Assembly: GCF_026262575.1 (NCBI RefSeq)
Contig: NZ_JAPKFL010000010.1
Span: 62,001-126,000 of the forward strand
Reading direction: 5' to 3'
Source of the DNA: Streptomyces marinisediminis
Lineage (GTDB): Bacteria > Actinomycetota > Actinomycetes > Streptomycetales > Streptomycetaceae
Length of the DNA stretch: 64,000 nt
Below are positions 11,340-56,737 of the stretch, one piece after another. The notes beneath the pieces are model-generated. The model ran no database searches. It was not told where the DNA came from and worked only from the letters and a program-made list of their open reading frames with translations. The stretch's first letter is position 1; each line of letters starts with the position of its first letter. The translations under genes and the position numbers were made by a program.

Positions 11340-11343
<4 letters not shown>
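10150..11343 (-). CDS. PP-loop ATP pyrophosphatase, probable oxazole cyclodehydratase (CongE/OzmP type)
   Basis: About 397 aa. An N-terminal zinc-knuckle pattern (CxxC, Cys24/27 and 44/47 in this numbering) precedes the PP-loop SGGKDST (86-92); another CxxC (CVSC) lies mid-protein. The overall layout is that of N-type ATP pyrophosphatases such as N-acetyl sugar amidotransferases and tRNA thiolases. In conglobatin and oxazolomycin loci a discrete member of this superfamily is credited with cyclodehydrating the N-formylglycyl-keto chain to a 5-substituted oxazole. Here it sits directly between the formyl-Gly loader and the KS-ACP protein, which supports that role. The GTG start at 11343 overlaps the upstream stop (GTGA) and has AGGGGG upstream. 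GTG at 11283, also with a good RBS and right before the first CxxC, is an equally possible start. A sulfur-transfer role is less likely in this context. Confidence 0.88.
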
Positions 11344-15025
<3,682 letters not shown>

Positions 15026-15029
<4 letters not shown>

Positions 15030-18000
15030 TGTGCGCCTCCTTCGGGCTGCCCGTGCCGCGGCAGCAGTTCGGCCAGCAGTTCGTCCACGGCCGCGTCGGA
15101 CAGGCCCGCGACCAGCCGCTCCACCTCGCCGCCACCCGGCGCCGCCCCGGGCTCCGGCTGCGGCGCCGTTTCCGGCTCCGGCTGCGGCTGCGGCTGCGGC
15201 TGCGGCTGCGGGGCGACGGCCGGGGTGGACGTGGCGCGGAAGTGCTCGGCGAGCTTGCGGATGGTGATGCGCTCGAACAGCAGCGTCGCGGGCTGCGGCC
15301 CGTAGCGCGGCTCCAGGGCCCGGGTCAGCTCCAGCACCAGCAGGGAGTCCACGCCGTAGTTCTCGAACGTGAGATCGGGGTCGAGCTGCTCCGGGTCCAT
15401 CTCCAGGACGCGGGCGAACACGCCCGTGACGTGGGCCAGTACGTCGTCCGGGCCCTCGGGTCCGGCCCCGGGCGCGGCGGCCGGGGTGCTCGGCGCGGGC
15501 GGTGCGGCCGGGGCGCTCGGCGCGGCCGGTGCGCTCGGTGCCGCTGGTGCGGTGGCCGCCGTCCGGTCCCCCCGCTCCCCCGCGGGCACCACGCCGTCGC
15601 TGACGGCCGCGAACACGCTCTGGAACCCCGTCCCCGGGGCGTCGGCCGGGGTGCCGACGCTGATGTGGTGGAAGCCGGCGGCGGCCAGCACGTCGCGCCA
15701 CTGCCGCTCGCTCGCCAGCGGCGAGCGCGGCAGCCGCTGCTCGGGGTCGGCGAACAGCCACCAGCCCGTCGTCAGGCCGAAGACGAGGGCGAGTTGGTGA
15801 CGCGCCCGGGTGCCTTCGGTCAGCAGCAGCACCCCGCCGCCGCGCAGCAGCCGCTTGGCCCGCGCCACGGTGTCGCCGAGCCGCCGGGTCGCGTGGAAGA
15901 CGTTGGTGCCGAACACCACGTCGTGGGCGCCGACGGGCACGCCCTGCCCGGCGGGGTCCGCCTCGACGTCCAGCGGCGCGAACCGCACGAACGGGTGGTC
16001 GGCCGCGAACCGGGCCCGGCCGCGGCGCAGCAGGCTCGGGGAGAGGTCGGTGAAGGTGTACTCCACCCGGGCCGCGTGGGGAGCCAGCGCGGCGAGCACC
16101 GCGGCGCTGGTGCCGCCCGTGCCGGCGCCGATCTCCAGGACCCGCACCCGGGCGCCGGGGTCGGCCGCGAGCCGGGCCTCGACCTGCTCGACGACGAGCC
16201 GGGCCACCTCCGCGTTGCACCGGTCGGTGACCGGGTCACCCTGGTAGACCGCCGCCACCCGGTCGGGCGAGCCGTCGGGGAACAGGATCTCCATGGCGCC
16301 CCGCCGCCCGGTGAGCACCTCGGGCAGCGCGGTCAGGCAGTCGCGCAGCAGGGTCAGCGCCGGGGCGACGCTCGGGTGCCCGGTGGCCAGCGCGTCGACG
16401 GACCGCAGCAGGTCCGCCTCGGCGTCGACGGGCCGCTTCCCCGGGCCGACCAGGCCGTCCTCGATCCGCAGGTGGTCGGAGTCGGCCAGGATGTCGAGCT
16501 GCGCCTGGAAGAGCGCGGCGTGCTCGGGCACGACGCCCAGCAGACCGCCCAGGCGTGCGCGGTCCGGTCGCCCGGCGACCCGCGCGAACAGCCCGGCCCG
16601 CTCCAGGGCGGCCGCCAGCAGGCGCGGGGCCAGCTCCTCCGCCCGCGCGACCGCCCGCTGGTGGTCCCGCAGCGCGCCGTCCGCCTCCGCGGCGTGGCCC
16701 GAGCGCACCGCGGGCAGCGCGGCCGGACGGGCGCCGGGCAGCACGGTCAGCGTCCGGTCCGGGCGCACACCCAGGGTGTCCAGGACGCGCTGGTCGGCCT
16801 CCAGGGCGAGCACCTGCGGCAACTCGGCGCCGAGCACCCGTTCCACCAGGGCCGCGCCGCGCTCCGCGCTCAGCGGCCGGACGCCCGCCGCGCGCAGCCG
16901 GGTCAGCGCCCGCTCGCGCTCCGGGTCGCCGCCCGCGTGCCAGTAGCCGAGGTTGAGCACCCGGACCGGGAAGGGCAGCGTGCGCGCGGCGTGCAGGGCG
17001 TAGGCGTCCGCGGCGGTGCAGCCCGCGGCGTAGCCCGCCTGCCCGTGGTTGCCGCCGAAGGCGACGCCGGAGGAGAGGAACAGCGCGAAGTCCAGCGGTT
17101 CGTCGCGGACGGCGCGCAGCACGCTCCAGGCGGTGTCGGCCTTGACGTCCAGCGCCGCGCGCAGCCCGGCCTCGGTCAGCTCCCGCAGCGGCTCGTTGAC
17201 GAGCACCATCGCGGCGTTGACCACCCCGTGCAGGGCGCCGAACTCCCGCTTCGCGCGGTGCACGGCGGCGGCGAGGGCGGCCGGGTCGGTGGCGTCGGCG
17301 GACACGTAGTGCGCCCGCGCCCCGGCCGCCTCCAGCTCCGCGAGCGCCGCGCGCCGCCGCGCGTCCAGCGGGGCGCGTCCGACGACGACGAGCCGGGCCC
17401 GGTAGGTCCGCGCCAGGTGCCGGCAGAGGTCCCGGCCGACGGTGCCGAGCCCGCCGATCACCAGGTAGGTGCCGCCGTGCCGGAACCGGCTCGCGGTGGC
17501 GGGCAGTTCGACGCGCTCCAGCGTGCGCACGCGCCGCACGCCGGCGCGCAGCGAGACGGGCTCGGGGCGGGCCGCGAACGGCTCGGCCGCCACCAGCGGC
17601 GCGGCGTCGGCCGCCTCGCGGGCGCGCACGTCCACCAGCGCGGTGCGCAGGTGCGGGTACTCCTTGTCCGCGACCATCGCGAGTCCGGCCAGCGCGGCCG
17701 CCCAGGGGCGGGAGTCCTCGTCCGGCTCCAGCGGGTACACGTCGGTGGTGACGACCTTCAGGCCCAGCTCGCGGTGGAGCGCGCCGTGCCGGTCGAGGGC
17801 GCGCAGCAGGCGGAAGAGGGACACCGCGGTGCGGTCCAGGGCCGTGCGCACGGCCGCGGCGTCACCCGGTTCGGGGTCGTCGCCGGTGCCGAGGAAGTAG
17901 ACCAGGTCCGGGCTCCCGAGGTCGGCCAGCGCCCGGTCCAGCTCGGCGTCGGCCAGGCCGCCGTCCGGGCCGGTGCCGACCGGCAGCCGCCGCACCCGGG

Positions 18001-21000
18001 CGGCGCGGTGGGCCTGGGCGATGCCGTCGGCCAGCTCGCCGTCCGGGCGGGCGCCCACCAGCAGCACGCGTTCGGCGTGCGGGGCGGTGCCCCCGGCGTC
18101 CCCGGCGCCCTCGGCGCTCCGCGCGGTCCACGCCGGGCGGTGGCCGACGACGGGCGACGGCTTGGCCTCGCGGTAGGCGAGCCCGACGACGCGGACCCGC
18201 ACGGCCCCGGCGTCGTCCAGGAGCGCGACGTCGCAGCGGTCCCGGCCGGTCTCCCGGACGTGGGACCAGCCGCTCTCCGGGACCGGTCCGAACACCTCGA
18301 CGCGGTCGGCGGCGAAGGGCAGCATCGGCCGCGCCCCCTCCCCGCGCCGCCGCGCCAGCAGCGCGGCCACGGTGTGCAGCGCGGCGTCCAGGACGCCCGG
18401 GTGCAGCGGGTGCCCGCCGCTCCCGGCGGCGCGGTCGTCGGCGGGCGCGGTGAGGCGGGCGAGCGCCTGGTCCGGGCCGGTCCACACCTGGTGGACGCGG
18501 CGGAAGAACGGTCCGTAGGGCAGGCCCTGGCCCGTCAGCAGGCGGTAGAACGCCGCGTGGTCCTGGCCCGCGTCGAGGCCGGACCGCAGCGCGGCGACGT
18601 CCACCGGCGCGGGCGCGGGCGGCGCGGCGACCAGGCGGCCGTGCGAGCGGACCGTGCCGTCCGGGCCCGCGACCTCGTACCGCTCGCCGTCGCGGCGCAC
18701 CGAGACGGCGGTCGCCGGGCCCTCCCCGGCCAGCGGCGCGACCCAGCGCACGTCGGCGAAGGCCCGCCCGGTCAGGTCGCCGCACGCCTGGGCGACCAGG
18801 TCGAGGTGGCCGACGCCGGGGAGCAGCGGGCGGCCGTCGACGACGTGGTCGCGGAGCACCGGCGCGTCGGCCGGCAGCGTGCACCGCCACGGCTCACCGG
18901 AGCCCGGCGCGGGGGCCGCCGGGGCCGCCGGAGCGGCCACGGGGGTCGATCCGCCCGCCGGGGCCGGGGCAGCCGCCGGGGCCGGGGCAGCCGCCGGGGC
19001 CGAGCCGGTCGCCGGTGCGGGGGACGGCTCCAGCCAGTGGCGCACCCGCTCGAAGGGGTAGCCGGGCAGCGGTACGCGGCGGCGCGTGCCGGGGCGCAGG
19101 CGGTGCAGCAGGTCCCAGTCCACGGTGATGCCGGAGACCCACAGCCGCGCCAGGAGGCCGTCGTCCCCCGCGCGTATGCGCGCCGCCAGGAACTCCTCGC
19201 CGTCGACGCCCTGGGTGAACAGCTCCGCGAGCGGCGGGTGCTGGCCGACCCGGCCGCGCTGGAGCCACGGGCCGTCCTCGCCCCGGGCGACGGCGGCGAA
19301 CCGCTCGGCGGCCTGCGCCACGTCGGCGGCCGTGAACGCCAGGCGCTCGGCCAGCGGCTCGCGGCCCACGCGCAGGGTGTGGCCGACGTCCGCGAGCCGG
19401 AGCGGCTCGGGGCCGGAGGGCTCGGCCAGGGCCCGGGCGAGCCGGTCCGCGTACTCCCGCAGCCGCCGCTCGTCGCGGGCCGAGAGGACCAGGAGCTCGG
19501 GCGCGGCGGCCGGGGCGGCGGCGGGCCCGGGGGCCCGGTACTCCTCGACGATCACGTGGGCGTTGGTGCCGCCCGCGCCGAAGGAGCTGACGGCGGCCCG
19601 GCGCGGCAGCGGCCGGCCGTCCGCGTCCCGTGGCTCCGGCCAGTCCCGGGTGGTGCGCTGGAGGGTGAACGGGGAGCGGGTGAAGTCGATGACGGGGTTG
19701 GGCTCGTCGGCGTGCAGGGTGGGCAGCAGCGTGGCGTGCCGCAGTTGCAGCACGGCCTTGGTGAAGCCCGCGATCCCGGCGGCGCCCTCCAGGTGCCCGA
19801 TGGCCGACTTCACCGAGCCCAGGGAGCAGAACCCGGTGTCGCCGGTGTGTCCGGCGAAGGCCTGCGCGAGCGCGGTGTGTTCGATGGGGTCGCCCAGGGC
19901 CGTCCCGGTGCCGTGCGCCTCGACGCAGCCGATGCTGCGGGCGTCGACGCCCGCGGCGGCCAGCGCCTGCTCGATCAGCGCCTGCTGGGCGTGCGGGTTG
20001 GGGACGGTGTAACCGCTGGTGCGGCCCCCGTGGTTGACGGCGGTCGCCCGGATGACGGCGTGCACGGTGTCGCCGTCCCGCTCGGCCTCCGAGAGCCGCT
20101 TGAGCAGCACGGCACCGACGCCCTCGCCGGGCACGTAGCCGTCCCCGCCCGCCCCGAAGGCCCGGCAGCGGCCGTCGGTGGAGAGCATGGACTTCCGGCT
20201 GAGGTGCACGTACTTGTCCGGGTGGACCGCGACGTTGACGCCACCGGCCAGCGCGTAGGAGCACTCGCCGCGCCGGATGCTCTCGCACGCTTGGTGCAGG
20301 GCCACCAGGGAGGCCGAGCAGGCGGTGTCGACGACGACGCTCGGTCCGCGGAAGTCCCCGAAGTAGGAGACCTGGTTGGCGATGGCGGACCGGTTGGCCA
20401 GCACCACCTGGTGGTTGCCGCGCGCCGACTCGGTGGCGGCCAGCACGGCGTAGTCGTCCCACATCACGCCGACGAACACGCCCACGTCGTGGCCCTGGCC
20501 GCCGAAGCGCGGGGCGGGGATGCGCGAGGGCGGGTAGCCCGCGTGCTCCAGCGCCGACCAGGCGGTCTCCAGGAACAGCCGCTCCTGCGGGTCCATCGAG
20601 CGGGCCTGCTTGGGGGAGATCTGGAAGAACAGCGAGTCGAAGGCGTCGACGTCGTCGAGGAACCCGCCCCAGCGGCCGTAGCTGCGGCCCGGCGCGGCGG
20701 GGTCGGGGTCGAACAGGGCGTCGGCGTCCCACCGCTCGGCCGGGACCTCGCCGACCGCGTCCCGCCCGGCGGCCAGGTTGCGCCAGAACTCGTCCAGGTC
20801 GCCGGCCTGCGGGTAGCGCCCGCTGAGCCCGATGACGGCGATCGGCTCGTCGGCGGGGCGCTCCGGGGCCACGGCGGGCGCGGAGCGGGGCACGGGCGGC
20901 GCCGGGGCGCGCGGGGCGGGGGGCGGCTCCGGCTCGGTCCGCGCCGCGCCGGTCCCCGCCCCGCCGGGGGCGGTGACGGGCGCGGGGAAGAGCCGGGCCA

Positions 21001-24000
21001 CGTCCTCGGCGTGCTCGGCGAGCAGGTGGTCGGCCAGCTCCGCGACCGAGCGGTACTCGAAGAACACGGTGCCGCGCAGGTCGGGGAAGTCCCGGCCCAG
21101 CACGGTGTTGGCCTCCATCACCAGCACCGAGTCCATGCCGTAGCCGTCCAGCGGGGCCCGGCTGTCCAGCCGGGCGACGGGCAGCCTGAGCACCTCCGAG
21201 AGCGCGCCGCGCAGGTGTTCCACGAGCCGCTCCCGGCGCTCCGCCAGCGCCCGGGCGTCCGACGCCCCGGCCTCCGCCACGTCGACCGACGCGGAGCCGG
21301 CGGACGCGGACACGGCGGGCACGGCCGACGCGGCGCCCGGGGGCGGCGCGTCGGGTGCCGCGGCGTCGGTCAGCGCGGCGTCCAGCGTCGCCGCGTCGCC
21401 CCAGGCGGGCACCAGCCACGGCGTCGCGGCGTCGAAGGAGCGGGTGAACAGCTCCAGCCCGGCGTCCGTGCCGAGCGCCCGCATGCCGGTGCGCCGGGTG
21501 TACGCGGTCAGCTCGGCCTCCCGCACCAGTCCGTCCACGCCGCCCGCCGACCACAGCGGCCAGGCCAGCGCGAGGCTGCGCCCGTGCCGCTCGCCGCGCC
21601 GCACCCAGGAGTCGCGCAGGACGGTGTAGAGGTCCGCGAACCGGTTCGCGGTGGCGTAGCTGGCGGCGCCGAAGTCGCCGACCAGGGAGGAGACGGAGGA
21701 GAAGACGCAGAACAGGTCGAGCGTGTCGTCCCGGGTGAGCTGGTCGAGCAGCACCAGGCCGCGGGCCTTGGCGGCGAGCACCCGCGCGAACCGCTCGCGG
21801 TCGCCGTCGGTGGCCCGGCCGTCGTCGGCCACGCCGGCCAGGTGGAAGACGCCGTGCGGCGCGCCGAACCGCTCGCGGGCCCGGGCGAGCGCGGCGGCGA
21901 GCGCGGTGCCGTCGGTGACGTCGGCGCGCACCGCCAGCACCCGCGCCCCGTCCCGCTCCAGCGCGCGGTGCCAGGAGCGGGCCGCCTCGTCCGGCGCGGA
22001 GCGGCCGACCAGCACCAGCCGGGCCCGGCAGGTGCGGGCCAGGTGCTCGGCCAGCAGACGGCCGAGGGCTCCGCCGCCGCCGGTGACGACGTAGACGCCC
22101 TCCTCGCGCAGCGGCGGCCCGGCGGCGGCGGGGGCGGTGTCGGTGTCGGGTGCTGCCGGCACCGCGCACAGCGCCCGCACCTCCCGGCGGCCGTCCGCCG
22201 TGCGGCGCACCTCCCGGCCCGCCGCCCGGGCGGCGGCGCGCAGTTCGGCGGTGAGCGCCGCGGCGAGCGCGGCGGCGGGGGCCGCCGCGTCGACGCCGAG
22301 GGTCAGCAGCTCCAGGCGCGGGGCCGCGGCGGCGGTGGACCGGGCGAATCCGGCCAGCGCCGCCCACTCGGGCCGGTCCTCGCCGTCCCCGCCCGGGTGC
22401 GCCAGCAGGCACCGCACCCGGCCCGGCAGGGCGCCGGATGCCACGTCGCGGACCACGTCGAGCAGGGTGAAGCAGGCGTCGTCCAGGCTCGTGTCCAGGG
22501 CGGCGGTGCCGGTGCCGTCCGGGCGGCAGGCGGGCGGTGCGGTGAGCGGGTCCAGGTAGGCCACGTCCAGGCCGTCGGCGTCCGCGAGGTCCGCGAGCGC
22601 CGCGCCCCGGGCCCGGCCGTCCCCGGGCACGGCGACGACCCGCCGCCACACCCCGCTCTCGGCCAGGGCCGCGCGCAGCTCGGGCGTCCCGCCGAGCACG
22701 GCGAGCGTCGCGGCGACCGGGCCGGGCTCCGGCTCGGCGGCGGGGCGCCAGTACGGCGCGTAGAACCGCGCTCCCTCCGGCGTGCCCGCCCCGGTCGCGT
22801 CCTCCGGCGCGGCGGACCCGGTCGCGTCCTCCGGCGCGGCGGACCCGGTCGCGTGCTCCGGCGCGGCGGCGGGCGGGCGTCCGGCGAAGTCCCGGGCCAC
22901 GGCGAGGACCGCCCCGTGCTCGTCGTACACCGTCAGGTCGAAGCGGCGGACGCCGCCCGCCTCGCCCACCAGGCGGGCGTGCGCCCAGCAGGCGGCGGGG
23001 AGCGGGGCGTGCACGGTCAGCTCGCCCAGGCTGAAGGGCACCGCCAGTTCGCCGGGCGCCGGGGCGGTCTCGCGCCCGGCCCAGTGGCAGGCGCGCAGGG
23101 CCCCGTCGAGCAGGGCGGGCGGCAGGTCGGACGCCGGCTCCCCGGGCGGCGCCGTCAGCCGCACCAGGGCCTCCCCCGGGCCGCCGCGCACCTCGTCGAC
23201 GACCTGGAAGGACGGGCCGTAGGCGAAGTGGGCCGCGGCGTAGTCGGCGTAGACGGCGCTCCGGTCGCGGACGGGGGCGAGCCGGGCGCGCAGCGCGGCC
23301 AGGTCGGCGGCGGGCCCGGGGTCGGGCGCGGGCACGGCGGCGCCCCTGGCGTGCACGGTCCGGGCGCCGTCGGCCCCGGTGAACACCTCGAAGGCCAGTC
23401 GGCCGGCCCCGGGGCGGAAGGAGACGCGCAGGTCGAGCCGTCCCTCCGGGAGTTCGACGGGACGGCCCCACACCACGTCGCGCAGCGCGTGCCGGACGCC
23501 CGGCTCGGCGAGGTGGGCGGCGGCCCGGACGAACGCGAGCGTGGCCGCGCCGGCCAGCAGCGGCCTGCCCTCGATCACGTGGTCCCGCAGCAGGGCGTCG
23601 TCCGCGCGCAGTGTCGTGCGGAACCGCAGCCCGTCGACCGTGGACTCGTTGGCGTCCACCAGCGGGTGCGGGCCGGCGGGCTCCGGCGCGGCCCCGGAGG
23701 CCGGCCGTGCGGCGGGGGCGCCGCCGGGCAGCCGGTCGGGGTCGAGCGGAATCCAGTACCGCTCCGGGGCGAACGGGTACAGCGGCGCGCGGACCCGGCG
23801 CGGCGCGGGGCCCGGCCGGTCGGCGTGCCAGGCGGCCCAGTCCACGTCCGCGCCCGCCAGCCACCGTTCGGCCCGCTCGGCCAGCGGTCCGCCCCCGGGC
23901 GCCCGCGGCGGCTCGGGCGGGGGGCCGCCGTCGGCGTAGCGGCGCAGGGCGGCCAGCAGTTCGGCGCCGTCGTCGGTGAGCACCGCGAGCCGAACCTCCA

Positions 24001-27000
24001 GCGGCTCGCGCCCGACCTGCGTGGTGTAGCAGAGGTCGGCCAGCGGCACGTGCTCGGTGGTCAGGAACCGCGCCGCCCGGTCGGCGTAGGCGCGCAGCCG
24101 CTCCTCGTCGCGGGCGGACAGCAGGAACAGCACCGGTTCGGCGGCGCGCTGTTCGGCGGCGGGCGCGGCGGCGCGCGGATCGCGGCGCGCGGACTCCTCC
24201 AGGACCAGGTGGGCGTTGGCGCCGCCCGCGCCGAAGGAGCTGAGCGCGGCCCGGCGCGGCCGCTCGCCGTCGGCCCAGGCGCCGCGCTCCCGCTGCACGC
24301 GGAACGGCGAGCGGTCGAAGTCGATGTTGGGGTTGAGCCGGTCGGCGTGGAGCGACGGCACCAGGGTGCGGTGCTCGAACTGGAGCAGCACCTTGGTCAG
24401 TCCGGCCATGCCGGCCGCCGACTCCAGGTGGCCGACGTTGGACTTGACGGAGCCGATGGGCCAGTGGCCGGGGCCGGCCCCGGCGGCGCGGTAGGCGGCG
24501 GTGAGGCCGGTCAGCTCGATCGGGTCGCCCAGCGCGGTCCCGGTGCCGTGCGCCTCGACGTAGCCGATCTCCTCCGGCGCGACCCCGGCCCGCTCCAGGG
24601 CGGCGGTGACGACGCGCTGCTGCGCGCGCGGGTTGGGGACGGTGTAGCCGTTCGTCTTCGCCCCGTGGTTGACGGCGCTGCCGAGGATGACGCCGTGGAT
24701 GCGGTCGCCGTCGGCCAGCGCCCGGCGGTAGGGCTTGAGCAGGACGGCGCCGACCCCCTCGCCGGGCACGTAGCCGTCGCCGCCCTCACCGAACGCGCGG
24801 CAGCGGCCGTCGGAGGACAGGAACCGGCCCTGGCTGAGAAAGGCGTACTTGTAGGGGTGCAGGGAGACGTTGACGCCGCCCGCGATCGCCAGCTCGCTCT
24901 CCCCGCGCCGCAGGCTCTCGCAGGCGAGGTGGATCGCCGTCAGCGAGGAGGAGCACATGGTGTCCAGGGCCAGGCTGGGCCCGGACAGGTCGAGCGCGTA
25001 GGAGACCCGGTTGGCGATGGTGGCGAACGACGAACCGGTCAGCGCCCGGCCGCCGCGCAGCACGTCCAGCGCCCCGTGGAACTGGTACTCGCCGTACATG
25101 ACGCCGACGTAGACGCCCACCGGGCGGCCGGCCAGCTCCGCGCGGCGGTACCCGGCGTCCTCCACCGCGTGCCAGGCGTTCTGCAGGAACAGGCGCTCCT
25201 GCGGGTCCATCACCTCGGCCTGGCGCGGGGAGATGCCGAAGAACAGCGGGTCGAAGCGGTCCACGTCGCGCAGGAAGCCGCCCCAGCGGGTGTGCGCCCG
25301 GGCGGGCGTGGCCGGGTCGGGGTCGTACCAGCGGGTGGCGTCCCAGCGGTCGTCGGGGATCTCGGTGACGCAGTCGCGGCCCTGGAGCAGATTGGCCCAG
25401 AACTCGTCGAGGTCGTCGGCGAGCGGGTACCGCCCGGCGATGCCGACGACGGCGACGGCCTCCTCGCCCGCCGGGGTGTCCGCGAAGCCGGCGTCCGCCG
25501 CGAAGCCGGCGTCCGCCGCGAAGCCGGCGTCCGCCGCGGACCCGGCCTCGCGCGGCGCGGCGGCCGTCGCGGCGGCGGGGCGCGCGGGAGCGGACTCCGG
25601 CGCGGCGGCGCGGGCCGCGGTGCCGGACCGGCCGGCCGGGACGGGCGCGGGGCGCAGCGCGGCGGCGTGGTGCTCGGCGAAGTACGCGGCCAGCTCCGCG
25701 AGCGTGGCGTACTCGAAGAACAGCGTCTTGGACAGTCCCTCGAAGCGGCGTTCGAGCTCCCGGTTGAGCCGGGTGATCATCAGCGAGTCGATGCCGTAGC
25801 GCTCGAAGGGGGCGTCGGGCAGGAGCTCCCCGGCCGCCAGCCCCGTCTCGGCCGCGATCAGCTCGCCCAGCATGCCTAGGGCGTCGGCGTGCGGGTCGGC
25901 CCCGGCGTCCGGGTCCGCGTCGGCACCGGCTCCGGAGCCGCCGCCCTCGGCCGCGCCGCCGGGCGCGGGGGCCGTCGGCGCCGGAGCCGCCTGGGCGGTG
26001 ACCGGAGCGGTGAGGGTGTCGGTGATGCGCGCGGTGTCGCCGTAGGCGGCCACGAGGGCGCCCGAGGCGCCCAGCGCCCGCCCGAGCAGGTCGAGGCCGG
26101 TCTCGGTGGGCAGGACGCCGAAGCCGGTGCGGGCGGCGAGGTCCTCGGCGGCCTCGGCGGTCTGGCGCATGCCGCCCTCGGCCCACATCGGCCAGGCGAC
26201 GGAGACCAGCCCGGCCCGGTGCCCGGACGGCGCCCGGTGCCGCTCGGCGTAGGCGTCGAGGAAGGCGTTGGCGTAGGCGTAGTCGCTCTGCCCGGCGCTG
26301 CCGACGTGCGCGGCGATGGAGGAGAAGGCGACGAAGAAGTCCAGCGGGTCGTCGGCGGTGGCCGCGTCCAGCGCGCGCAGGCCCGCCACCTTGGGGGCCA
26401 GCACGGCGTCGAGGTCCGCGTCGGACTTGGTGAGCGCGAAGCCGTCGCGCAGCACCCCCGCGGCGTGGACGACGCCGTGCAGCGGGCCGGACTCCTCCCG
26501 CACCGCGTCCAGGCACGCGGTGAGCGCTGTGGCGTCGGACACGTCGACGGCGCGGTAGACCAGCCGCTCGTCCAGCGCGGGGCCGCCCGGCTCCGCGCCG
26601 CGCCCGAGCAGCACCACGCGCGCGTCCGCCCGGCCGAGCAGCCACTCGGCCACGCGGCGGCCCAGGCCCCCCGCTCCCCCGGTGACGAGGTAGTGGCCGC
26701 CGTCGCGGACGGCCACCGGCGCGGCGGACGGCAGCGGGGCGACGCCGGGCAGCTCCCGCCCGGCCGCGGTGTGCCGCACCTCCGGTTCGGCGCCCGGGGC
26801 GGCCAGTTCGGCGGCGAGCGCGGCGGCCTCGGCCACGCCGTCGGCCAGTCCGACGGCCTGCACGGCCAGCAGCGGGTTCTCCGCGCGCACGGCGCGGGCG
26901 AAGCCGGCCAGCGCGGCGCGCTCGGGGTGGGCTCCGGCCGGGTCGTGCCGGTGCAGGAGCAGCACCCGCACCGGGTGGGTCACCCGCGCGCGCAGCAGCC

Positions 27001-30000
27001 GCCGCACCAGGGCGAGCGCCTGGGCGGGCCCGGGCTCGTCCACCACGAACAGGGCCGTGTCCGCGGGCGGCTCGGCCTCCGGGGGCACGGCGGTGACCTC
27101 CTCGGCCCCCAGCGCGGTGAGCGTGTCGGCCAGCCGGGTCCGGCGCTCCGCGTCGGCCGCGACGACGGCGGCGCGCGGCACGGTGACCGACCGCGCGGCG
27201 CCCGCGCCGTCGGCCCCGGCGCCGTCGGGGTGCGCCGGGGCGGCGGACCAGCGGCGGGCCAGCAGGGCGGGGCCGGTGGAGCCGCCCAGCACCCGCACGG
27301 TGAGGTCGCCCAGCCGGGCCAGCACGGCTCCGTCGGCGTCCAGCACGGTCAGCTCGGCGCGGGCCGAGCGGGCGCCGAGCCGTCCGGTGCGCACGTGCAC
27401 CCAGCAGGCCCCGGTGACCGGGGCGTGCACGGTCAGCTCGCCGAGCGCCAGCGGCAGGAAGCCGTCGGCGGCCGGGCCGTAGGAGCGGTCCAGCAACACC
27501 ACCAGGGCGTGCAGGGCGCCGTCCAGCAGGGCGGGGTGGAGCACCGCGCCGTCCAGCGCGGCGCCGTCCGGCACCGCCAGCAGGGCCAGCGCCTCGTCCT
27601 CGCCGAGCGCCACCTCGGTCAGCGCCCGCATGCGCGGCCCGTAGTCCAGGCCCCGCGCGCGCAGCGCGGCGTAGCAGGCGTCGTGCGGCACGGTGTCGGC
27701 GCAGCGGTCGGCCACCGCGCCGACGTCGCGGGGCTCCGGCCGCTCGGCGGCTCCGGTGCGCAGCCGCCCGGCGGCGTGGACGCGCTCGCCCTCGGTGACC
27801 TCGAAGCCGACCCCGTCGCCCGCGCGCCGCACGGAGACCAGCGCGGTGCGCGGCCCCCCGGCGTAGGAGAGCAGGGCGTCGAAGGAGACGTCGCGCAGGT
27901 GGACGGGGCCGCCGCAGGCCAGCTCCCCGGCCGCCCTGGCCAGTTCGAGGAAGCCGACGGCCGGCATCACCGGCTCACCGGCGACCCGGTGGTCGGCGAG
28001 GTAGAACTCGGTGCCGGTGCGGGCACTGCGGTAGGCGACCGCGTCCAGGGTGGACACGTTCTCGTCCAGCATCGGGTGCGGCCCGTGCCCGTCGCCGGGA
28101 GCCGGGGCGGCCGGGGCGGCCCCCGCGGCCGGGGCGGCCGCCGTGTCCCGGGCCTCCGCGCCGGTCATCCAGCAGCGGCGGCCCTCGAAGGGGTAGGTGG
28201 GCAGCGGCACCCGGCCGCGCTCCTCGCCGGCGAACCAGGCGACCCAGTCCACGTCGGCCCCGGCGGCCCAGGCACGGCCGACGGCCTCCCACAGCCCGTC
28301 GGCGGCGCCCAGGACCAGGCCGTGCGGCTCCTCCGCGGCGCCGCGCAGCGCGATGCCGTCCCCGCGCGCGGCGTCCCCCCGCACGGCGTCCCCGCGCGCG
28401 GCGTCCCCGCCGTCCGCCGGGCGTCCGGGGCCGGTCGCGGGCTCGTCCGCCCCGAGCCGGGCGGCACCGTCGGCCAGGGGCAGCGCCCCCGTGACGCAGG
28501 CGGCGGCCAGGGCGGCGGCCCCGTCGCCGTGGACGGCCGAGGGACGCAGGCCCCAGCCCAGCCAGCACCGGCCCAGCGCGTACTGGAGCGCGAACGCCTG
28601 GCCGCGCTCCCCGTGCGCGTCCGCGCCCGCGGCCAGCGCCGCCGCGTGGTGGGTGGCGAAGGCCGGTTCGGCGGCGCACCACCGGGCGGCCAGCTCCGCG
28701 GCGTCGGCCACCCGCTCGGTGAAGGCGAACACCGGCGGCCGGGACGTCGGCGCTCCGGGAGCGGGGGCGGCGCGCAGCGCGTCGGCGAGCGCCGCGGGGT
28801 CGCCGCCGTAGACGGCGAGCCGGTACTCGTGGGCGCGGCGGCCGACGGCGAGGGTGTAGGCGACGTCGGCGAGGTCGGCCGGGGCGGCGCCGCCGAGGTG
28901 GTCGGCGAGCTCGTCGGCGGCGGTGCGCAGCGCGCTGGGCGTGCGGGCGGAGACGACCAGGACCTGCGCCGGACGCGAGTCGCCGGTGGCCGGGGCGGGC
29001 GGCGCCTCCTCCAGCACGGCGTGCGCGTTGGTGCCGCCGATGCCGAAGGAGCTGACCCCGGCGCGCAGCGGGCCCGGGGCCCGCCACGGCGCGGTGTCCG
29101 TGCTCACCCTGAAGGGGCTGCGCGCGAAGTCGATGGCCGGGTTGGCCGTGTGGTGGTTGAGCGTGGGCACCAGGGTGCCGTGCCGCATCATCAGCGCGGT
29201 CTTGATGACGCCGGCCACGCCCGCGGCGGCGTCCAGGTGCCCGATGTTGGACTTGACCGAGCCGATGGCGCAGAAGCCGGTGTCGGCGGTGGCGGCCCGG
29301 AAGGCCTTCGTCAGCGCCGAGACCTCGACCGGGTCGCCCAGCCGGGTGGCGGTGCCGTGCGCCTCCAGGTAGGTGATCGTGCGGGGGTCGATCCCGGCCA
29401 CCGCGTGCGCCTCGCGGATGACGGCGCTCTGCCCGGCCGCGCCGGGGGCGGCGAAGCTGACCTTGCCGGAGCCGTCGTTGTTGGTCGCCGTGCCCTTGAT
29501 CACCGCGTGCACGGTGTCCCGGTCGGCGAGCGCGTCCCGCAGCGGCTTGAGGACGAGCACGCCCACGCCGTTGCCGAGCACGGTGCCGCTGGCCTCGGCG
29601 TCGAAGGTGCGCACGTGCCCGTCCCGGGACAGGATCGCCCCGTCCTCGTACAGATAGCCCTTGGTCTGCGGCAGTTTGACGGTGACGCCACCGGCCAGGG
29701 CCATGTCGCACTCGCCGTTGACCAGCCCCTGGCAGGCCAGGTGCAGCGCCACCAGGGAGGTGGAGCACGCGGTCTGCACGGTGTAGCTGGGGCCCTTGAG
29801 GTCGAGCTTGTAGGACAGCCGGGTGGCCAGGAAGTCCTTGTCGTTGCCGACCATCACCGCGAAGTGGCGGGAGGTGGTCGTCTGGTCGACGTTCGGCAGG
29901 ACCTGCTGCTGGAGGTAGGTGTTGATGGCCGCGCCCGCGTAGACGCTGATCAGCCCGTCGAACCGGGCCGGGTCGTAGCCCGCGTGCTCCAGGGCGGCGT

Positions 30001-30385
30001 GCCCCGCGGTGAGCAGCACGCGGTGCTGCGGGTCGGTGAACTCCGCCTCGGCCGGGGTGAACTCGAAGTACCCGGTGTCGAAGAGGTCCACGTCGGGGAT
30101 GACGCCGTGCGCGGGCACGTAGCCGGGGTCGTCCAGCAGCGCCGCGGGGACCCCGGCCGCCGCCAGCTCCGCGCGGCTGAAGCGCCGGATGCCCTCGCGG
30201 CCCTCGCTGAGCAGGCTCCAGAAGGCGTCCAGGTCGTCGGCGCCGGGGAAGCGGCCGGCCATGCCGACGATCGCGATGTCCGTGTCGGCGACCTCCAGGT
30301 CGGCGATCGCCGTCTCGGCGCTCTCCGGCCCGGTGGTTCCCGGCCCGGTGATCTCCTGGCCGCTGTGGCCGTCGGGGCTGCTCAC
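15026..30385 (-). CDS. Trans-AT PKS, KS-DH-KR-ACP x2, KS-DH-KR-MT-ACP (5119 aa)
   Basis: Three modules without functional AT. Module 1: KS (Cys207), vestigial AT (about 490-750), DH (HRVAGEPVMP near 799, LDGALH near 955), KR, ACP (Ser1534). Module 2: KS (Cys1811), DH with altered motifs (HVIEGRPLLAG near 2267; LDGALR near 2425), KR, ACP (Ser3086). Module 3: KS (Cys3356), DH (HVVDGRPLLPG, LDAALH), KR (YAAGC, tetrad Asn absent), C-methyltransferase (LEIGAGTGG near 4749), ACP (Ser5014). The tail LSDAAVDELLAELL resembles a short docking motif. It predicts two conjugated double bonds and an alpha-methylated unit. KS1 is of the post-NRPS type, so it probably takes an aminoacyl chain, consistent with the Gly segment of oxazolomycin. 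GTG start at 30385 with a strong GAGGAGAG site; 108 bp separate it from the NRPS gene. Confidence 0.96.
15181..15210. repeat. Hexanucleotide repeat (GCTGCG)5 in PKS linker
   Basis: Five perfect units, encoding a Pro-Gln stretch between the last ACP and the docking tail of the 5119-aa PKS. In frame, in an interdomain linker. Confidence 0.9.
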
Positions 30386-30493: not shown

Positions 30494-33400
30494 TCAGTCC
30501 GCGGGCTCCGGGCCCGCGGGGCGCCCGGGCGGGGCGGGGCGGGCCGCCCGGGACCGCAGGGCCGCCACGTCGGCCGCCGGGTCGGCCGCGATCTCCGCCA
30601 GCAGGGCCGGGAAGCCCCGCGCCAGCCGCTGCGCCGTCCGCCGGGTGAACAGGTCGGTGCTGTACTCCAGGTAGCCCCGCAGCCCGCCGGCCGTCTCCCG
30701 GGCGACGAGGTTGAGGTCGTACCGCGCGGTGCCGTGGTCGACGGTGAGCTGCCGCACCGCCGGGGCGGCTTCCCCGGCGGTCCCGGCGGTCCCGGCGGTC
30801 CCGGTGCCGCCGGTCTCCCCGGCGGCCGCCGGTGGCGGCTCCTCGGGCGGGAGCAGGTTGAACATCGTCTGGAACACCGGCGTGTGGGCGGGGTCGGGGG
30901 TGGGGCCGACGGCGCGCGCGACGTCGGTGAACGGCACGTCCTTGTGCTCGTGCGCCTCCGTGGTCACGCGCCGGGCCCGCTCCAGGACCTCGCCGAACGG
31001 CCGGTCCCCGGCCACGTCCAGCCGCAGCGCGACCAGGGTGACGAAGTAGCCCACGACCGGCTCCAGCTCCGCCCGCGGCCGGTGCGAGACGGCCGAGCCG
31101 ATCACCAGGTCGTCGTCCTCGGACTGCCCGCCCACCAGCACGGCGAACGCGGCCAGGAGCGTCGTGTAGAGCGTGGCGCCCCGCTCCTGGCCCACCGCCC
31201 GCAGCCGGGTCAGCAGCTCCTCGGGCACGGCGTACTCCGCCGAGGAGCCCTGGTAGGACTTCACCGGGCCGCGCGGGAAGTCGGTGCGCAGCGCCGGGCG
31301 GGCGGGCAGGCCCGCCAGGGCGCGGCGCCAGTAGCCGAGCTGGCGGCGCAGCTCGGCGGTGCCGACCGCGCGCCGCTGCCAGCGGGCGAAGTCGGCGTAG
31401 CCCAGCGGCGGCGGCTCCACGCTGGGTGCCTCGCCCCGCCGCAGCGCCTCGTACCCGGCCATCAGCTCGCCCAGCACCAGGTGCACCGACCAGCCGTCGA
31501 AGACGCCCCAGGGGCGGGTGAGGACGGCCACGTGCGCGTCGTCGGACAGGGCGAGCAGGTGGGCGCGGAGCTGATGCGGTCCCTCCGGCGCGAAGGGCAG
31601 CGTGCGCTCGGCGCGCAGCCACTGCGTCACCTCGGCGCCCACGGCGTCGTCGGTATCCACGGCGCCGTCGGCGGGCCCGGTGTCCTCGGCGTGCCCGGCG
31701 TCCCCGGTCAGTTCGGTGACGGCCACCTCGAACCCCTCGGCGGAGCCCACGCGCTGGACCCACTCGCCACCCGCGCGCCGGACGTAGCCGGTGCGCAGGA
31801 CGGCGTGCCGCTCGACCAGCGTCCGGACGGCACCGGCGAAGGCGTCGCGGTCGAGCGGGCCGTCGACCCGGAAGGCGAGCTGGACGTTCTCGTGCCCGCT
31901 GCCCAGGTGCGCGGGCCGGTGCAGGAACCACAGCGCGTCGCGCTGCTGGAGGCTCAGCGGCGCCTCCTGGCCCTCCCGGACCAGGTCGCCCGCCGGCAGC
32001 GGCACCTCCGGCGCGGCCTCGGGCTCCCGCTCCAGGGCGGCGGCCAGCTCCTCCAGCGTGGCGCCCGCGAAGATCGCCGCGAGGGGGAGCTCGGCGCCCG
32101 TCTCCTTGCGCACCCGCAGGGTGAGACGGGTGGCGAGCAGGGAGTGCCCGCCCAGGTCGAGGAAGGTGTCCTGGAGGCCGACGCGGCCGACGCCGAGCAC
32201 CTCGCCGACCAGGCGGCACAGCGTGCGCTGCGCCTCGGTGCGGGGCGCGACGTAGGTCTCCTTGGCCACGTCGTCCTCGCCCGGCTCCGGCAGGGCCCGC
32301 TTGTCGACCTTGCCGTTGGGCGTCACGGGGAGCTGTTCGAGCACCACGAAGGCGCTGGGCACCATGTACTCCGGCAGCCGCGCCGCCAGGTGCTCCTTGA
32401 GCGTCCGGGCGGTGGCCGGGCCGAGCCGGCCGAGCTGCGGGACGTTGGCCGACCGTGGCGCCCGGTAGGCGCCGCGGGCCCGCACCGGCGGCAGCTCGCC
32501 CAGGCCGAACACCGCGTCCAGCGCGCCGGGCGTCTCCTGCGACCAGGTCAGCGCCACCTGGTAGCCGAGCGACTCGGCGTGCCGCAGCGCGGACTCCAGC
32601 TCCCGCGCCGCCGCTTCGGACGCCCCGGTCTCCCCGGCACGGGCGTCGCCGGGGGCCGGGACCTCGCGGCCGGGGGCCCAGCGGGCCAGGTCGGCGTGCA
32701 GGCGCAGGGCGTCGGCGACGCGGGGGTGGGCCAGACCGCTCACCCCGAACCGCGCCGGCGGGTCGCCGTCCAGCAGCTCCCGCAGCCCGGCCGCGGTGGT
32801 GGCCGCCAGCCACGGGTGCGGCTCGGCCGGGGCCGCGGGACCCTTGGTGAGCAGCACGTCGTAGCGGTAGTCCGACGCTCCGCCGGCGCCTTCCATGCCG
32901 TCGCCGCGCCGCACCGGCAGCTCCACGGAGCCGAGTTCGGTCAAGCGCTCGGGCAGCCGCGCGAAGTGGGTGGGGCTCACCAGCAGGTGCGGTTCGGCGC
33001 GGACGGCCTCGCGGGTGCGGGCGGCCAGCTCGGCGGCGGTGAGCGGCCCCGCGGCGGCGCGGTGCTCGGCTGCGCACGCGCGGGCCGGGAGCAGGTCGAG
33101 GTTGCCCACGTCGGTGACGAGGACGCGGCCGCCGTCCGCCAGCAGCGGCAGCAGCCCGGCCAGCACCGCGTCCAGGTGGCGCTCGTGGGGGAAGCAGCGC
33201 ACGACGGAGTCGAGCACGACGGTGTCGAAGGTGGTTCCGGCCAGCTCCTGCACGGCGGCCAGCGCGTCGGCCCGGTGGAGGGTGACGTGCGTCCAGCCGC
33301 GGGCGGCCACGCGGCGCCGGGTGGCGTCGAGCGCGGCGGCGGAGAGGTCGACCGCGTGCACGGACGCGCACTCCTCGGCGTACCGGAACAGCAGCGAGCC

Positions 33401-36400
33401 GGGGCCGCAGCCGATCACCAGCAGCCGCTTGGGCCGCAGCGTCCCCAGCGGGTCCGCGCCGGCACCGGCCTCGGCGCCGGCCCCCGCCCCGGGCTCCGTC
33501 CCGGCGTCGGCGTCGGCGTCGGCGTCGGCTTCCCCTTCGGCGGTGGCGGTGGCGCGCTGACCGTCGAAGTGGCGCTCCCACCGCTCCAGGTGGGCCGCGC
33601 TCTCCTCCTCGGCCGCGTCCACCAGCCACTCCCGCGTCGGACTGACGTAGGCGACGAGCGCCCGCTCGGCCCCCGACGCGCGCGGTACGACGACGGCCCG
33701 GTGCACCGCCGGGTGGGTGTGCAGCGCGTTCTCCACGTCTCCGGGCTCGACGCGGAAGCCGCGCACCTTGAGCTGGTCGTCCACGCGGCCCAGGTGCTCG
33801 ATCAGCCCGTCGGGACGCCAGCGGGCCAGGTCCCCGGTGCGGTACATGCGCGTGCCGGGTGTGAACGGGTTGGCGACGAAGCGCTCGGCGGTCAGCGCGG
33901 GGCGGCCCAGGAAGCCGCGGGCGAGCTGGTCGCCGGCGATGTACAGCTCGCCGGGGACGCCCTGCGGCAGCGGGCGCAGGTCCCCGTCGAGCACGTAGGC
34001 CTGCGTGTTGCACACCGGTGCGCCGATGGGCACCCGGCGCGCCCCGGGCTCGGGGTGGTAGCGGCAGCCCAGCGCCGCGCCGACCTCGGTGGGCCCGCAG
34101 ATGTTGAACAGCGCCACGTCCGGCAGCACCCGCCACACCCGCTCGGCCAGCTCCACGGGCAGCGGCTCGCCGGTGGCCTCCAGGCGGCGCAGCCCGGTGC
34201 ACTGGGCGGCGGCGGGCTCGGAGAGGAACTCGGCGAGCATGGACGGCACGAAGTCGACGTCGGTGACGCCCTGGTCGCGGATGACCGAGGCCAGGTACTC
34301 GGGGTCCTTCTGGCCGCCCGGCCGGGCGATGACCACGCTGCCGCCCACCTGGAGCGGCCAGAACAGCTCCTTGACGGAGACGTCGAAGCTGACCGACGTC
34401 TTCAGCAGCACCCGCTCGCCCTCGGCCATCGCGAACGCCTGCTGGTCCCAGGCCAGCCAGTTCATGCTCGCCCGGTGGGTGATGACGACGCCCTTGGGGC
34501 GGCCCGTCGTCCCGGAGGTGTAGAGCACGTAGGCCGGGTGGTCGGGCAGCACGGCCACGTCCGGGGCCGTGTCCGGGTACTCCGCGGTGTCCGGCAGCTC
34601 GCTCAGGACCAGCAGCGGCCTGCCGTCGGCCAGCATGCGCTCCACCCGCTCGTCGGGCAGGTCGGTGTCGACGGGCAGGTAGGCGGCGCCGGACTTCAGC
34701 ACGCCGTAGATCGCGGTGAGCAGGTCGAACGAGCGCGGCATGCGGACGGCCACCAGCACCTCGGGGCCGGCGCCGCGCTCGATGAGCCAGTGGGCGAGCC
34801 GGTTGGCGCGGGCGTCGAACTCCGCGTAGCTGAGCGTCGCGTCCTCGTGGACGAGCGCGGTGCGGTCCGGGGTGCGCGCGACCTGGGCGGCGAAGGCGGC
34901 CGGCAGCGTCGGCGCGGGCACCGGCGCGGCGGTGTCGTTCCACTCCACGAGCAGGCGGTGCCGCTCGTCCTCGGGCAGCACCGCCACGTCCAGGGCGGCG
35001 GTGGTCCGGCCGTCGTCGGCCGCCAGGGCCGCGACGACCCCGGCCAGCGCCGTCTGCACGTAGTCGGTGACGGCCTCGCCGCTGATCGCGTCGTCGACCT
35101 GCACGTCCAGCGACATCTGGGTGCCGAAGTCGTCCAGCGACACCGACACCGGGTAGTTGATGCCGTCGGCCGCCGCCAGGAAGCGCACGCCGTGGTCGTC
35201 GGTGCGGACGCCGGCGGCCGGGCCGTGCTCGGGCTCGAAGTGCCGGAAGTTGGCCACCGCGCTGAACAGCGGGGCGTCGCCGTCCAGGCCGCTGCACCGC
35301 TGCACCAGGCCGAGCGGGCTCAGCTCGCGCGGCAGCAGCTCGCGCAGCCCGGCGTCCACGTCGGCGACCAGCTCGCGCACACTGCGCCCGGCCAGCCGCA
35401 CCCGCATGGGCAGGGTGTTGATGAAGTTGCCGAGCATGCGCTCCACGCCGGGCACGCCCTGGAGGCGGCCGGACATCACGGTGCCGAACACCACGTCGTC
35501 GCGTCCGCTCGTCGCGGCGACGACGCGGGCCCACGCCGCGTGGAAGAGGCAGGCCGGGCTCAGCCGCAGCCGCTGGGCCTGCTCCCGCAGCCCGGCGGTC
35601 AGCGGCTCGGGCAGGGTGCGGCGGAGCTGCCGGACCCGGCGGGCGTCACCGCGCACGTCGTCCAGGCCGAACGGGGTGGTGGGCTCGGTGACGTCGCCGA
35701 GCACGGCCCGGAAGTGCGCCTCGGTGTCCGCGAGGTCCTGCTGGTGCAGGGTGTGGGCGACGAAGTCGCGGTAGGGCGCCGGGTCGGCCAGCAGCTCCGC
35801 CCGGCCCGCCAGCCGCAGCGCCAGTTCGCGCAGCGTGAGCCGCAGCGAGGTGGCGTCCTCGATGAGGTGGTGGGCGTTGAGCACCAGGTAGCGGCGCGCG
35901 GAGCGCGGGTCCTCGGCGACCACCAGCCGCAGCAGCGGGGCCTGGTCGAGCGCCAGGCGGCCGGGCCGGTCCAGCAGCGCGCGGGCCTGCTCCTCGGCGT
36001 CCCGGTCCGGGTCCAGGCGGACGTGCTCGACCGGCAGGCGGGCGGTGCGGTGCACCACCTGCACGGGGGCCGGGAGCCGGTCGGTCAGGACGGCGGTGCG
36101 CATGGCGTCGTGCCGGTCGACGATGCTCTGGAGCGCCCGGACGAAGGCGGTGCTCGCCGCCTCGTCGTCGGCGACGTAGAGGGTGGACACGAGGTAGGGG
36201 TCGTGGTCCGGGTCGAGCAGGTGGTGGAAGAGGATGCCCTCCTGCGTCGGCATCAGCGGGTAGACGTCCTGGACGTTGGCCGCGCCGCCGGGCACGGCGT
36301 CCGCCACGGTGTCGGCCTGCTCCTGGGTGAGCTCGACCAGCGGCAGCATGGCGGGGGTCAGGCGGGTGCAGCCGGGCGGGACGAGGTTGGGCGGCACCGT

Positions 36401-49662: not shown

Positions 49663-50544
49663 TCACCACGCGGTGAGGGAGAACCGCTCGCCCAGGGCCC
49701 GGGCACCGATGGCGAAGTCCCGTATCCGCTCCGCCTTCTCGACCATCTTGTCGTCCCCGGCGCGCCGGGCGATCTCGACCAGCCACGTGTAGGTCTCCGC
49801 CGGGTGGACGTCGTAGGTGTAGTGCACCTTGGAGAGCAGGAAGAGGATGTCGCGGAAGTTCTCCCGGCCGATCACGCCCGCCAGGCCCAGGAGGGCGTCG
49901 CGGCGCTCGGTGGTGAAGGGCCGCCGCTCGGGCAGGTCGGGCGTGGCGCCGGGGGCGTAGACGGTGGGGTCGGCGAAGACCTCCTTCTCGTACGTCTCGT
50001 CGAACGCGCCGTCGAAGGCCAGGTCCACGCACAGGGACTGGCGGCTGACGTCGGAGAAGTTGGCGGCCGAGTGCACCGTCGCCGCGTCCAGGAACCAGAT
50101 CTCGCCGGGCCGCATGTGGATGACGGTGTCCTCGTTGGAGTGGAAGGCCAGCGGGCTGTCCTCCAGCACCATGAACGTGCGCACGTAGCTGTCGAGGTCC
50201 CGGTCGAGCTCCACGAAGTCGCGGTGCGGGATGACGACGGCGTTCTTCAGGTTCCTGCTGCGGGCCATCTGCACCCGCTCGACGTTGAACACGGTGGTGA
50301 CGAGTTCGCGCAGGTACGGCACCCGCTCCGCGTGCCGCGTCGGCCGCGCGGCCGCGCCGTCGAGGTCGCGGTAGAGCCGGTCGTCGCCGCCCCCGGTCGC
50401 GTTCCACAGCGGGATGTTCTTCCAGAATCCGTTGCTGAACTCGTCGTACTCCTCCTCCACGGTGGGCACCGCGGCGAGGTACTCCAGGTCCGGCGCCAGG
50501 CGGGCCCGGTCGAGTTCGATCTTCCCGAGAATGCGGGAGCGCAT
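49663..50544 (-). CDS. 2-oxoglutarate/Fe(II) amino-acid hydroxylase, proline cis-4-hydroxylase family
   Basis: 293 aa. The N-terminus RILGKIELD, the segment IPHRDFVELD, the segment RPGEIWFLDAATVHSA and the C-terminal KVHYTYDVH block match the layout of bacterial L-proline cis-4-hydroxylase, a relative of aspartyl/asparaginyl beta-hydroxylases. The metal triad is visible as His107, Asp109 and His158, with Arg168 as likely 2-oxoglutarate ligand. It should hydroxylate a free or carrier-bound amino acid. It lies directly after the MbtH gene and before the PKS/NRPS run, so the residue used by the unassigned second A domain of the 3098-aa NRPS is a plausible substrate; that is inference. ATG start with GGAGG six bases upstream fixes the N-terminus. 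Confidence 0.9.
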   Translation of the reverse strand: MRSRILGKIELDRARLAPDLEYLAAVPTVEEEYDEFSNGFWKNIPLWNATGGGDDRLYRDLDGAAARPTRHAERVPYLRELVTTVFNVERVQMARSRNLKNAVVIPHRDFVELDRDLDSYVRTFMVLEDSPLAFHSNEDTVIHMRPGEIWFLDAATVHSAANFSDVSRQSLCVDLAFDGAFDETYEKEVFADPTVYAPGATPDLPERRPFTTERRDALLGLAGVIGRENFRDILFLLSKVHYTYDVHPAETYTWLVEIARRAGDDKMVEKAERIRDFAIGARALGERFSLTAW

Positions 50545-50602
50545 GTGTCCTCCATGATCGCGGACGTGTCGAGCTGTTCGCCGCGCGCGGCCGGCTTGAT
50601 CC

Positions 50603-50854
50603 TCAGGAGCCGGGGGCCGTCGCTGCTCGGAGACTGCGGGGGCGCAGGTCCGTCCAGTTCTCCTCGACGAACGCCAGGCAGGCGTCACGGCTCGCCTCCG
50701 CCAGCGCGACCCGCCAGCCGGCCGGCACGTCCAGCGTGCTCGGCCACAGCGAGTGCTGGCCTTCCTCGTTCACCAGGACGAGATAGGCGGCCTCGGCGTC
50801 ATCGAAAGGATGAGAACGCCGGCGCTCTGTTTCCTGTCGCGACGACTGCAACAT
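50603..50854 (-). CDS. MbtH-like protein
   Basis: 83 aa, normal length for the family. It has the signature HPFDD, QHSLWP, VPAGW and ENWTDLRPRSL, including the conserved tryptophans. MbtH-like proteins bind NRPS adenylation domains and help their folding and activity. It probably serves the Ser, Gly or unassigned A domains of the neighbouring NRPS proteins, though the siderophore NRPS at the right edge could also use it. Start ATG at 50854; GTG at 50860 is an in-frame alternative. First gene of a likely two-gene unit with the dioxygenase (58-bp gap). The 246 bp upstream, to 51100, should hold its promoter; no clear motif was seen. Confidence 0.93.
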   Translation of the reverse strand: MLQSSRQETERRRSHPFDDAEAAYLVLVNEEGQHSLWPSTLDVPAGWRVALAEASRDACLAFVEENWTDLRPRSLRAATAPGS

Positions 50855-56643: not shown

Positions 56644-56737
56644 CGCGCGTGCCCCCGCCCCCGACCCGGTCCGCGAGCCGGCCGTACCCGTTGACCGCGG
56701 CCGCCGAGCCGCCCACGACCCCCGCAGGAGCCCCCCG

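Follow-up and report, generated by a model that had tools for sequence, protein, structure and literature searches.

The window analysed here, the whole stretch of 64,000 nucleotides, corresponds to bases 62001-126000 of contig C2 in a genome (G000) of 5.65 Mb and 141 contigs. A hydroxylase gene, P3H, and a gene for an MbtH-like protein share a strand with a PKS/NRPS run and lie upstream of it (Table 1). The MbtH gene is separated from P3H by 58 bp, and 708 bp lie between the P3H stop and the PKS start at 48954. The sequence-only reading had described a hydroxylase adjoining MbtH immediately upstream of the PKS/NRPS genes, and so it is: both are intact ORFs on one strand. The cluster was annotated with a simple gene caller, Pfam searches on g034 and g035, and adenylation-domain pocket codes. 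The code of g032 and the Gly-type module of g029 were taken to specify glycine, and the A1 code of g034 serine.

Table 1. Genes and domains of the cluster, in window coordinates.
Feature	Position	Strand	Basis
P3H, L-proline cis-3-hydroxylase orthologue, 293 aa	49663..50544	-	Pfam, similarity, alignment
MbtH-like protein, 83 aa	50603..50854	-	ORF, PF03621
g035, PtxH-like trans-AT PKS, 3055 aa	39787..48954	-	
g034, PtxG-like NRPS C-A1(Ser)-T-C-A2-MT-T-C, 3098 aa	30494..39790	-	
A2 adenylation core of g034, pocket code DVKDETIAAK, last K beyond MT insert	33656..34873	-	
Methyltransferase insert of A2, g034 residues about 2060-2440	32471..33613	-	
g033, PtxF-like trans-AT PKS	15026..30385	-	
g032, PtxE/OzmO-like formyltransferase-A(Gly)-T loading module, code DILQLGMIWK	11340..15029	-	
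g031, PtxD/OzmP/CongE-like oxazole cyclase with SGGKDS	10150..11283	-	
g030, PtxC/OzmQ-like PKS, 877 aa	7493..10126	-	
g029, PtxB/OzmH-like hybrid PKS-NRPS, NRPS-module code DILQLGLIWK; continues past window edge	2..7426	-	
g028, PtxA/OzmM-like acyltransferase	past g029, outside window		

Other biosynthetic genes surround this cluster. A siderophore cluster occupies window positions 55036-64000 and runs on to G000:C2:139527; it comprises an aryl-AMP ligase, a carrier protein, a siderophore-interacting protein, periplasmic-binding and transport-like genes, an NRPS, an MbtH gene, an ornithine/lysine monooxygenase and a formyltransferase. Between it and the P3H unit lies a gene for an imine-reductase/reductive-aminase-like protein (window 52409-53290, minus strand; PF21761, 155 bits). 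Left of the window, G000:C2:31226-47065 contains another NRPS cluster, which has an MbtH gene of its own and two further dioxygenase-like genes; Pfam assigns one of these to PhyH, and the other resembles VioC/TauD by eye.

Pfam places the hydroxylase ORF in Pro_3_hydrox_C (104 bits) and Asp_Arg_Hydrox (53 bits). It scores 525 bits against the cis-3 enzyme 1e5r, with 293 of 293 residues aligned, versus 157 bits against the cis-4 enzyme 4p7w. The Streptomyces sp. TH1 L-proline cis-3-hydroxylase, whose structure has been solved, shares 79% identity with it over the full length. An identity as a cis-4-hydroxylase was thus rejected; the earlier label "proline-cis-4-hydroxylase-like" had the wrong regiochemistry. 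H107, D109, H158 and R168 (TH1 numbering) are invariant in the 12 aligned P3H sequences, so the window enzyme shares its catalytic residues with TH1. The HxD...H residues (H107, D109, H158) are presumably the iron ligands, and R168 presumably the arginine that binds 2-oxoglutarate. By eye, the surroundings of the iron site are almost the same as in TH1. A Val replaces Phe in the conserved YFR stretch, in the window P3H only (1 of 12). The NCBIfam model TIGR04531 (nonproteinogenic amino acid hydroxylase) gives 112.9 bits, under its curated cut-off of 300. Judged by its sequence, the enzyme very probably makes cis-3-hydroxyproline.

The MbtH ORF scores 88 bits against PF03621 (gathering score 27) and contains the conserved Trp/Pro signature (NEEGQHSLWP...PAGW...NWTDLRP) that we take as the mark of MbtH-like proteins. 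S. toyocaensis has a relative of it beside P3H (57%), and genome G323 has one in the ptxH-ptxG interval (58%); by tblastn, an MbtH gene beside P3H was not found in three of the five P3H-containing clusters described below. The window's own genome has five MbtH matches. In G029, a genome that lacks P3H, the gene directly following PtxG encodes a 556-aa fusion of MbtH and cytochrome P450 domains (L073:16462-18132, Pfam-confirmed), and ORFs starting with MbtH stand at the same place in G645 and G352.

Published systems are compared here and below through the available parts of the cited papers. The cluster belongs with ptxA-H of S. avermitilis (PMC5764310), the phthoxazolin type, by gene order, size and role only, sequence collinearity having been shown against S. 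cellostaticus. The A-H order is present throughout: tandem AT, hybrid with a Gly module, 877-aa PKS, OzmP-like cyclase, F-A(Gly)-T, PKS, Ser-first NRPS and PKS. Domain roles agree too, with Gly, Gly and Ser adenylation and a methyltransferase in the last module. The clusters differ at the end of the line. In S. avermitilis the last A domain is predicted to use Tyr and PtxG has a P450 domain (PMC5764310); the window has the A2 code DVKDETIAAK and a methyltransferase, with no P450 domain among the Pfam matches of g034. Moreover, a SibV-like 155-aa dioxygenase (orf26) is listed by ptxH in S. avermitilis, in place of P3H. The ozm and laj clusters share with the window a trans-AT PKS with OzmM/H/N/L-type enzymes and, for ozm, which was compared by description, the formyl-Gly oxazole start (PMC4504003, PMC10831120). 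The assignment to an oxazolomycin pathway in the sequence-only reading needs to be changed from oxazolomycin proper to the ptx type. Its statement that no such hydroxylase is known in oxazolomycin pathways agrees with the gene tables of ptx (PMC5764310) and laj (PMC10831120), in the parts available, where none is listed. Phthoxazolin A has been assigned to the first modules of ptx, and the product of modules 7-13 is unknown (PMC5764310); the hydroxylase question concerns just this part of the assembly line. In all 15 PtxG-type NRPSs compared here, the last C domain reads PWG(V/I)(F/Y)DG in place of HHxxxDG. No thioesterase appears among the Pfam matches of g034, and the two features together may point to an unusual product release.

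A scan of relatives, with one genome per species, found P3H relatives at eight loci in named genomes. At four of them (L012, L013, L014, L016), in Streptomyces sp. 1-11, S. cellostaticus, sp. DHE7-1 and S. toyocaensis, P3H lies upstream of the g035 (ptxH) orthologue on the same strand, and a lone PPTase gene stands in between (two Pfam-confirmed, two by similarity). The other four loci have other NRPS genes (the second copy of sp. 1-11; NRRL F-6131) or none (two Amycolatopsis). Since the arrangement is the same at four of eight loci, the adjacency of P3H and the PKS is more than chance. The A-H block plus P3H is fully collinear between the window and S. cellostaticus. The window lacks this PPTase; a decayed copy in its 708-bp gap was considered and dropped, as no significant match was obtained. 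The GC content of P3H and MbtH is 69%, versus 78% in the PKS gene; this was not taken as a sign of recent acquisition, because in S. toyocaensis and S. cellostaticus, too, the GC content of P3H is below that of the neighbouring PKS gene. The P3H tree leaves the window copy without a resolved place and does not discriminate for or against a single origin with the other ptx-linked copies. As the hydroxylase occupies the same place in five clusters, we are confident that it belongs to the ptx-type cluster. The same arrangement in at least four other sequenced Streptomyces makes the locus a recurring subtype rather than the single new family member first proposed. In the wider sample, 5 of 392 Streptomyces genomes had a P3H match at E 1e-60 (41-100% identity), while an OzmP/PtxD relative was present in 12 of the 392 and in 16 of a family-wide sample of 394.

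We compared 15 PtxG-type NRPSs, five from clusters with an intact P3H and ten from clusters without; P3H absence was judged at E 1e-60 in the genus sample, 1e-10 for 16 genomes and 1e-5 for G709, G323, G110, G123 and G352, several of the assemblies being drafts. Outside this count are G586 (contig ends before ptxG), S. avermitilis ptxG and G123 (otherwise 38% to g034); G175, G191 and G656, whose NRPS is 41-48% identical to g034 over about 930 residues and belongs to another cluster type; G022, G018, G069, G295 and G388, fetched as stretches without a PtxG orthologue; and G608, G502, G436, G448, G510, G598 and G620, with PtxD at 70-75% and no P3H match. The A1 code is DVWHFSLVD (Ser) in all 15. 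The A2 code is DVKDET(I/L)(A/G)AK in five of five P3H-containing clusters and in none of the ten others, which have DVPHEA.. (six), DIPYEV.., DMY-LA.., DVWHLG.. and, in G323, DVKDEAVGAK (one each); DVWHLG.. we take to be Ser-like. Position 301, chosen post hoc, is Thr in five of five and in none of ten, where it is Ala (eight), Val (one) or Gly (one). These co-occurrences, and the trees below, involve few independent events and groups chosen after inspection. G123 was examined as a counterexample, having an A2-like core (68%) and no P3H, but its code is DVPDEALVE, not DVKDET. In the ptxG-ptxF block of G554 (L107-L108), whose A2 code DIPYEVGAVK is of yet another type, there are ORFs of 155, 295 and 522 aa, sizes like those of the ptx orf26-orf30 accessory genes; the 155-aa ORF has no Pfam match.

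The A2 cores of the five P3H-containing clusters and G323 form a single clade (100/100). On the rest of PtxG, with the methyltransferase excluded, holding the same six together is rejected (p-AU 0.00018): the other four P3H-containing rows and G323 group together (100/99) and the window falls outside. The conflict is due to one row, the window sequence, which has a long branch in several domain trees. G110 presents a similar conflict for the DVPHEA type. In the window lineage, the part that carries the pocket may thus, along with the hydroxylase, have either moved or stayed distinct from what surrounds it.

The usual proline code is DVQxIAHVxK, and the window A2 code is not Pro-like. A Pro-type domain elsewhere in the genome was considered as partner for the hydroxylase and discarded: no DVQxIAHV-type A domain was seen among the 12 domains on C2 (one of them a stand-alone aryl-AMP ligase) and seven matches elsewhere, loci L028, L030, L031 and L032 giving no domain by motif, so that some may have escaped notice. 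The idea that the hydroxylase and the then unassigned A2 domain point to a hydroxylated building block gains from the co-occurrence of A2 type and P3H, which makes it the best reading.

The domain next to A2 also varies among the clusters. The methyltransferase (METHYLTRANSFERASE) insert is absent in four of the five P3H-containing clusters and kept in the window, where SAM motif I reads LLVIGCGPG; the eight relatives having the insert have LEIGCG. In the clusters without P3H, a methyltransferase with LEIGCG is present in 8 of 10 and absent in two (G554, G323). The window region still gives a Pfam methyltransferase match of 56 bits, and the domain may be active. Within an amide, N-methylation of a proline-type residue is impossible, and the loss of the insert or its altered motif fits such a residue.

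We therefore favour a reading that builds on sequence, the conserved neighbourhood, the co-occurrence of A2 type and hydroxylase, and decayed remnants in G067. P3H, as a predicted Fe(II)/2-oxoglutarate enzyme, would turn free L-proline into cis-3-hydroxy-L-proline and probably supplies it to A2 in the last module of the ptx-type assembly line. The A2 domain of the PtxG-like NRPS, with the neighbouring MbtH-like protein as its putative partner, would activate cis-3-hydroxyproline and add it after serine. The product would be an oxazole polyene of the phthoxazolin/oxazolomycin type ending in Ser-(3-hydroxyPro). Since proline is a secondary amine, the methyltransferase by A2 would have no job and be deleted or decay.

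The remnants are in G067, of the DVPHEA type. At G067:C1:1106469-1107415 (L072), upstream of ptxH, a P3H remnant is spread over two frames, accompanied by an MbtH-like remnant (35% over 54 aa), in the gene order of the window. The G067 lineage probably possessed the MbtH-P3H pair in the past, and the pair decayed there, in a cluster with a different A2 type. A 21-residue MbtH match lies about 0.9 kb upstream of ptxH in G605.

The strongest competitor, to which we give a clearly smaller chance, keeps P3H in the ptx-like cluster and lets A2 load a different residue, such as proline, pipecolate, a 3-hydroxypipecolate or an unrelated amino acid, with the hydroxylase working on that substrate directly or, at a later stage, on the product while carrier-bound or after release. 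An A2 code unlike Pro codes speaks for it, and so do the in vitro acceptance of pipecolic acid and N-methylproline by the TH1 cisP3H (PMC6958525) and the near-identical A2 of G323 in a genome without P3H. On the other hand, the proline hydroxylases of bacteria have been described as enzymes of secondary metabolism whose substrate is the free amino acid only (PMC3252868), and the iron-site likeness to TH1 also weighs against it.

G323 bears on both readings. Its A2 is 77% identical to that of the window and 83% to that of S. cellostaticus; position 301 has Ala instead of Thr and position 322 has Val instead of Leu/Ile, and a search of its assembly of 1130 contigs at E 1e-5 yielded no P3H. Thus a DVKDE-type A2 does not require P3H. 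With G323 in the set, a clade made up of just the five P3H-associated A2 cores is rejected (p-AU 0.0016); this weakens the separate clade obtained with 12 clusters, which holds only with G323 inside. The trees suggest that G323 is nested in the P3H-associated A2 clade and has lost the hydroxylase. We hypothesize, from this one nested event, that the 3-hydroxyl group is contacted by Thr301 and that unmodified proline is the substrate in G323. It is tempting, though tentative, to propose a swappable last position in the ptx family, in which the P3H-containing lineage ends in cis-3-hydroxyproline with residue 301 of A2 as a Thr/Ala switch, and in which hydroxylase, MbtH and A2 pocket co-evolved and the methyltransferase was dropped at the secondary amine. 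If so, nature would offer a series of assembly lines differing by one hydroxyl and one or two pocket residues. The matched set (five clusters with P3H, G323 with P3H lost, G067 with P3H decayed) would allow a direct test of the joint change of an adenylation pocket and a precursor enzyme, which bears on the redesign of NRPS specificity.

That the MbtH-hydroxylase pair serves the siderophore cluster or another NRPS of the genome is improbable. The siderophore cluster, with its aryl-AMP ligase, begins 4.2 kb away, and a TH1-like P3H lies by an aryl-AMP-ligase/NRPS cluster in sp. 1-11, as the second copy there, and in G318; but the siderophore cluster already has an MbtH (G000:C2:136655), no Pro code is among the two A codes read there (DSDDVGMVDK, DVWNVGAINK), and in the four other genomes P3H adjoins ptxH with no siderophore-gene match on the other side within up to 10 kb. 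Least probable of all is that the enzyme supplies free cis-3-hydroxyproline to general metabolism or for protection against osmotic stress and adjoins the cluster by chance. The Amycolatopsis relatives and a plasmid-borne one in Corynebacterium (57%) speak for this reading; it is opposed by the shared position in five ptx-type clusters, the link with A2 type, the G067 remnants and the rarity of P3H in the Streptomyces sample.

Preferring cis-3-hydroxyproline at A2, we find partial precedents. The proline-3-hydroxylase-like gene plyP, in a PKS/NRPS cluster, is needed for polyoxypeptin as judged by knockout (PMC3943440). PlyP differs from the window P3H in its proposed substrate, 3-methylproline, and in its assembly line, and its listed identity is 32% to a Bacillus protein with the annotation L-proline 3-hydroxylase type II (PMC3943440). 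Telomycin contains cis-3-hydroxy-L-proline, for which the authors of a 2016 paper were aware of no other natural source (PMC5144071); it is a peptide antibiotic, not an oxazole polyene. An oxazole polyene with cis-3-hydroxyproline, if true, would add to the natural sources of this amino acid and offer a target of predictable mass. No paper naming the product of the window cluster was found among the literature matches listed. Tenebriazine and other terminal-oxazole compounds have been found through the OzmP-type motif (PMC12299652), and the product may already be known.

The loci outside ptx-type clusters show other settings of the hydroxylase. Streptomyces sp. 1-11 has two P3H copies, one in its ptx-type cluster and one, 94% identical to TH1, in another cluster. 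The copies closest to TH1 among those aligned (92-94%), at G318:C1 (L088, L124) and L015 (sp. 1-11), are in this non-ptx cluster type, accompanied by an aryl-AMP ligase, a carrier protein, MbtH and NRPS genes and, in L015, a halogenase-like gene. This type is probably the home of the crystallised TH1 enzyme. TH1 has been reported with two cis-P3H isoenzymes (PMC3252868), and by analogy we infer that the pair could be explained as in sp. 1-11, with one per cluster. At three P3H loci outside ptx-type clusters, the NRPS codes are Pro-like in G094 (DVQFYSHVIK), partly so in NRRL F-6131 (DAQFEGHVE) and not in G318, where the one A domain found reads DVTNVSTELK. The two Amycolatopsis relatives (60-61%) have no NRPS-like gene in 10 kb flanks. 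P3H relatives also occur on plasmids, in Corynebacterium halotolerans (NC_020303.1, 9367-10233, 57%) and in a marine Bacillaceae (CP045534.1, 2630-3499, 44%), where they perhaps serve free hydroxyproline.
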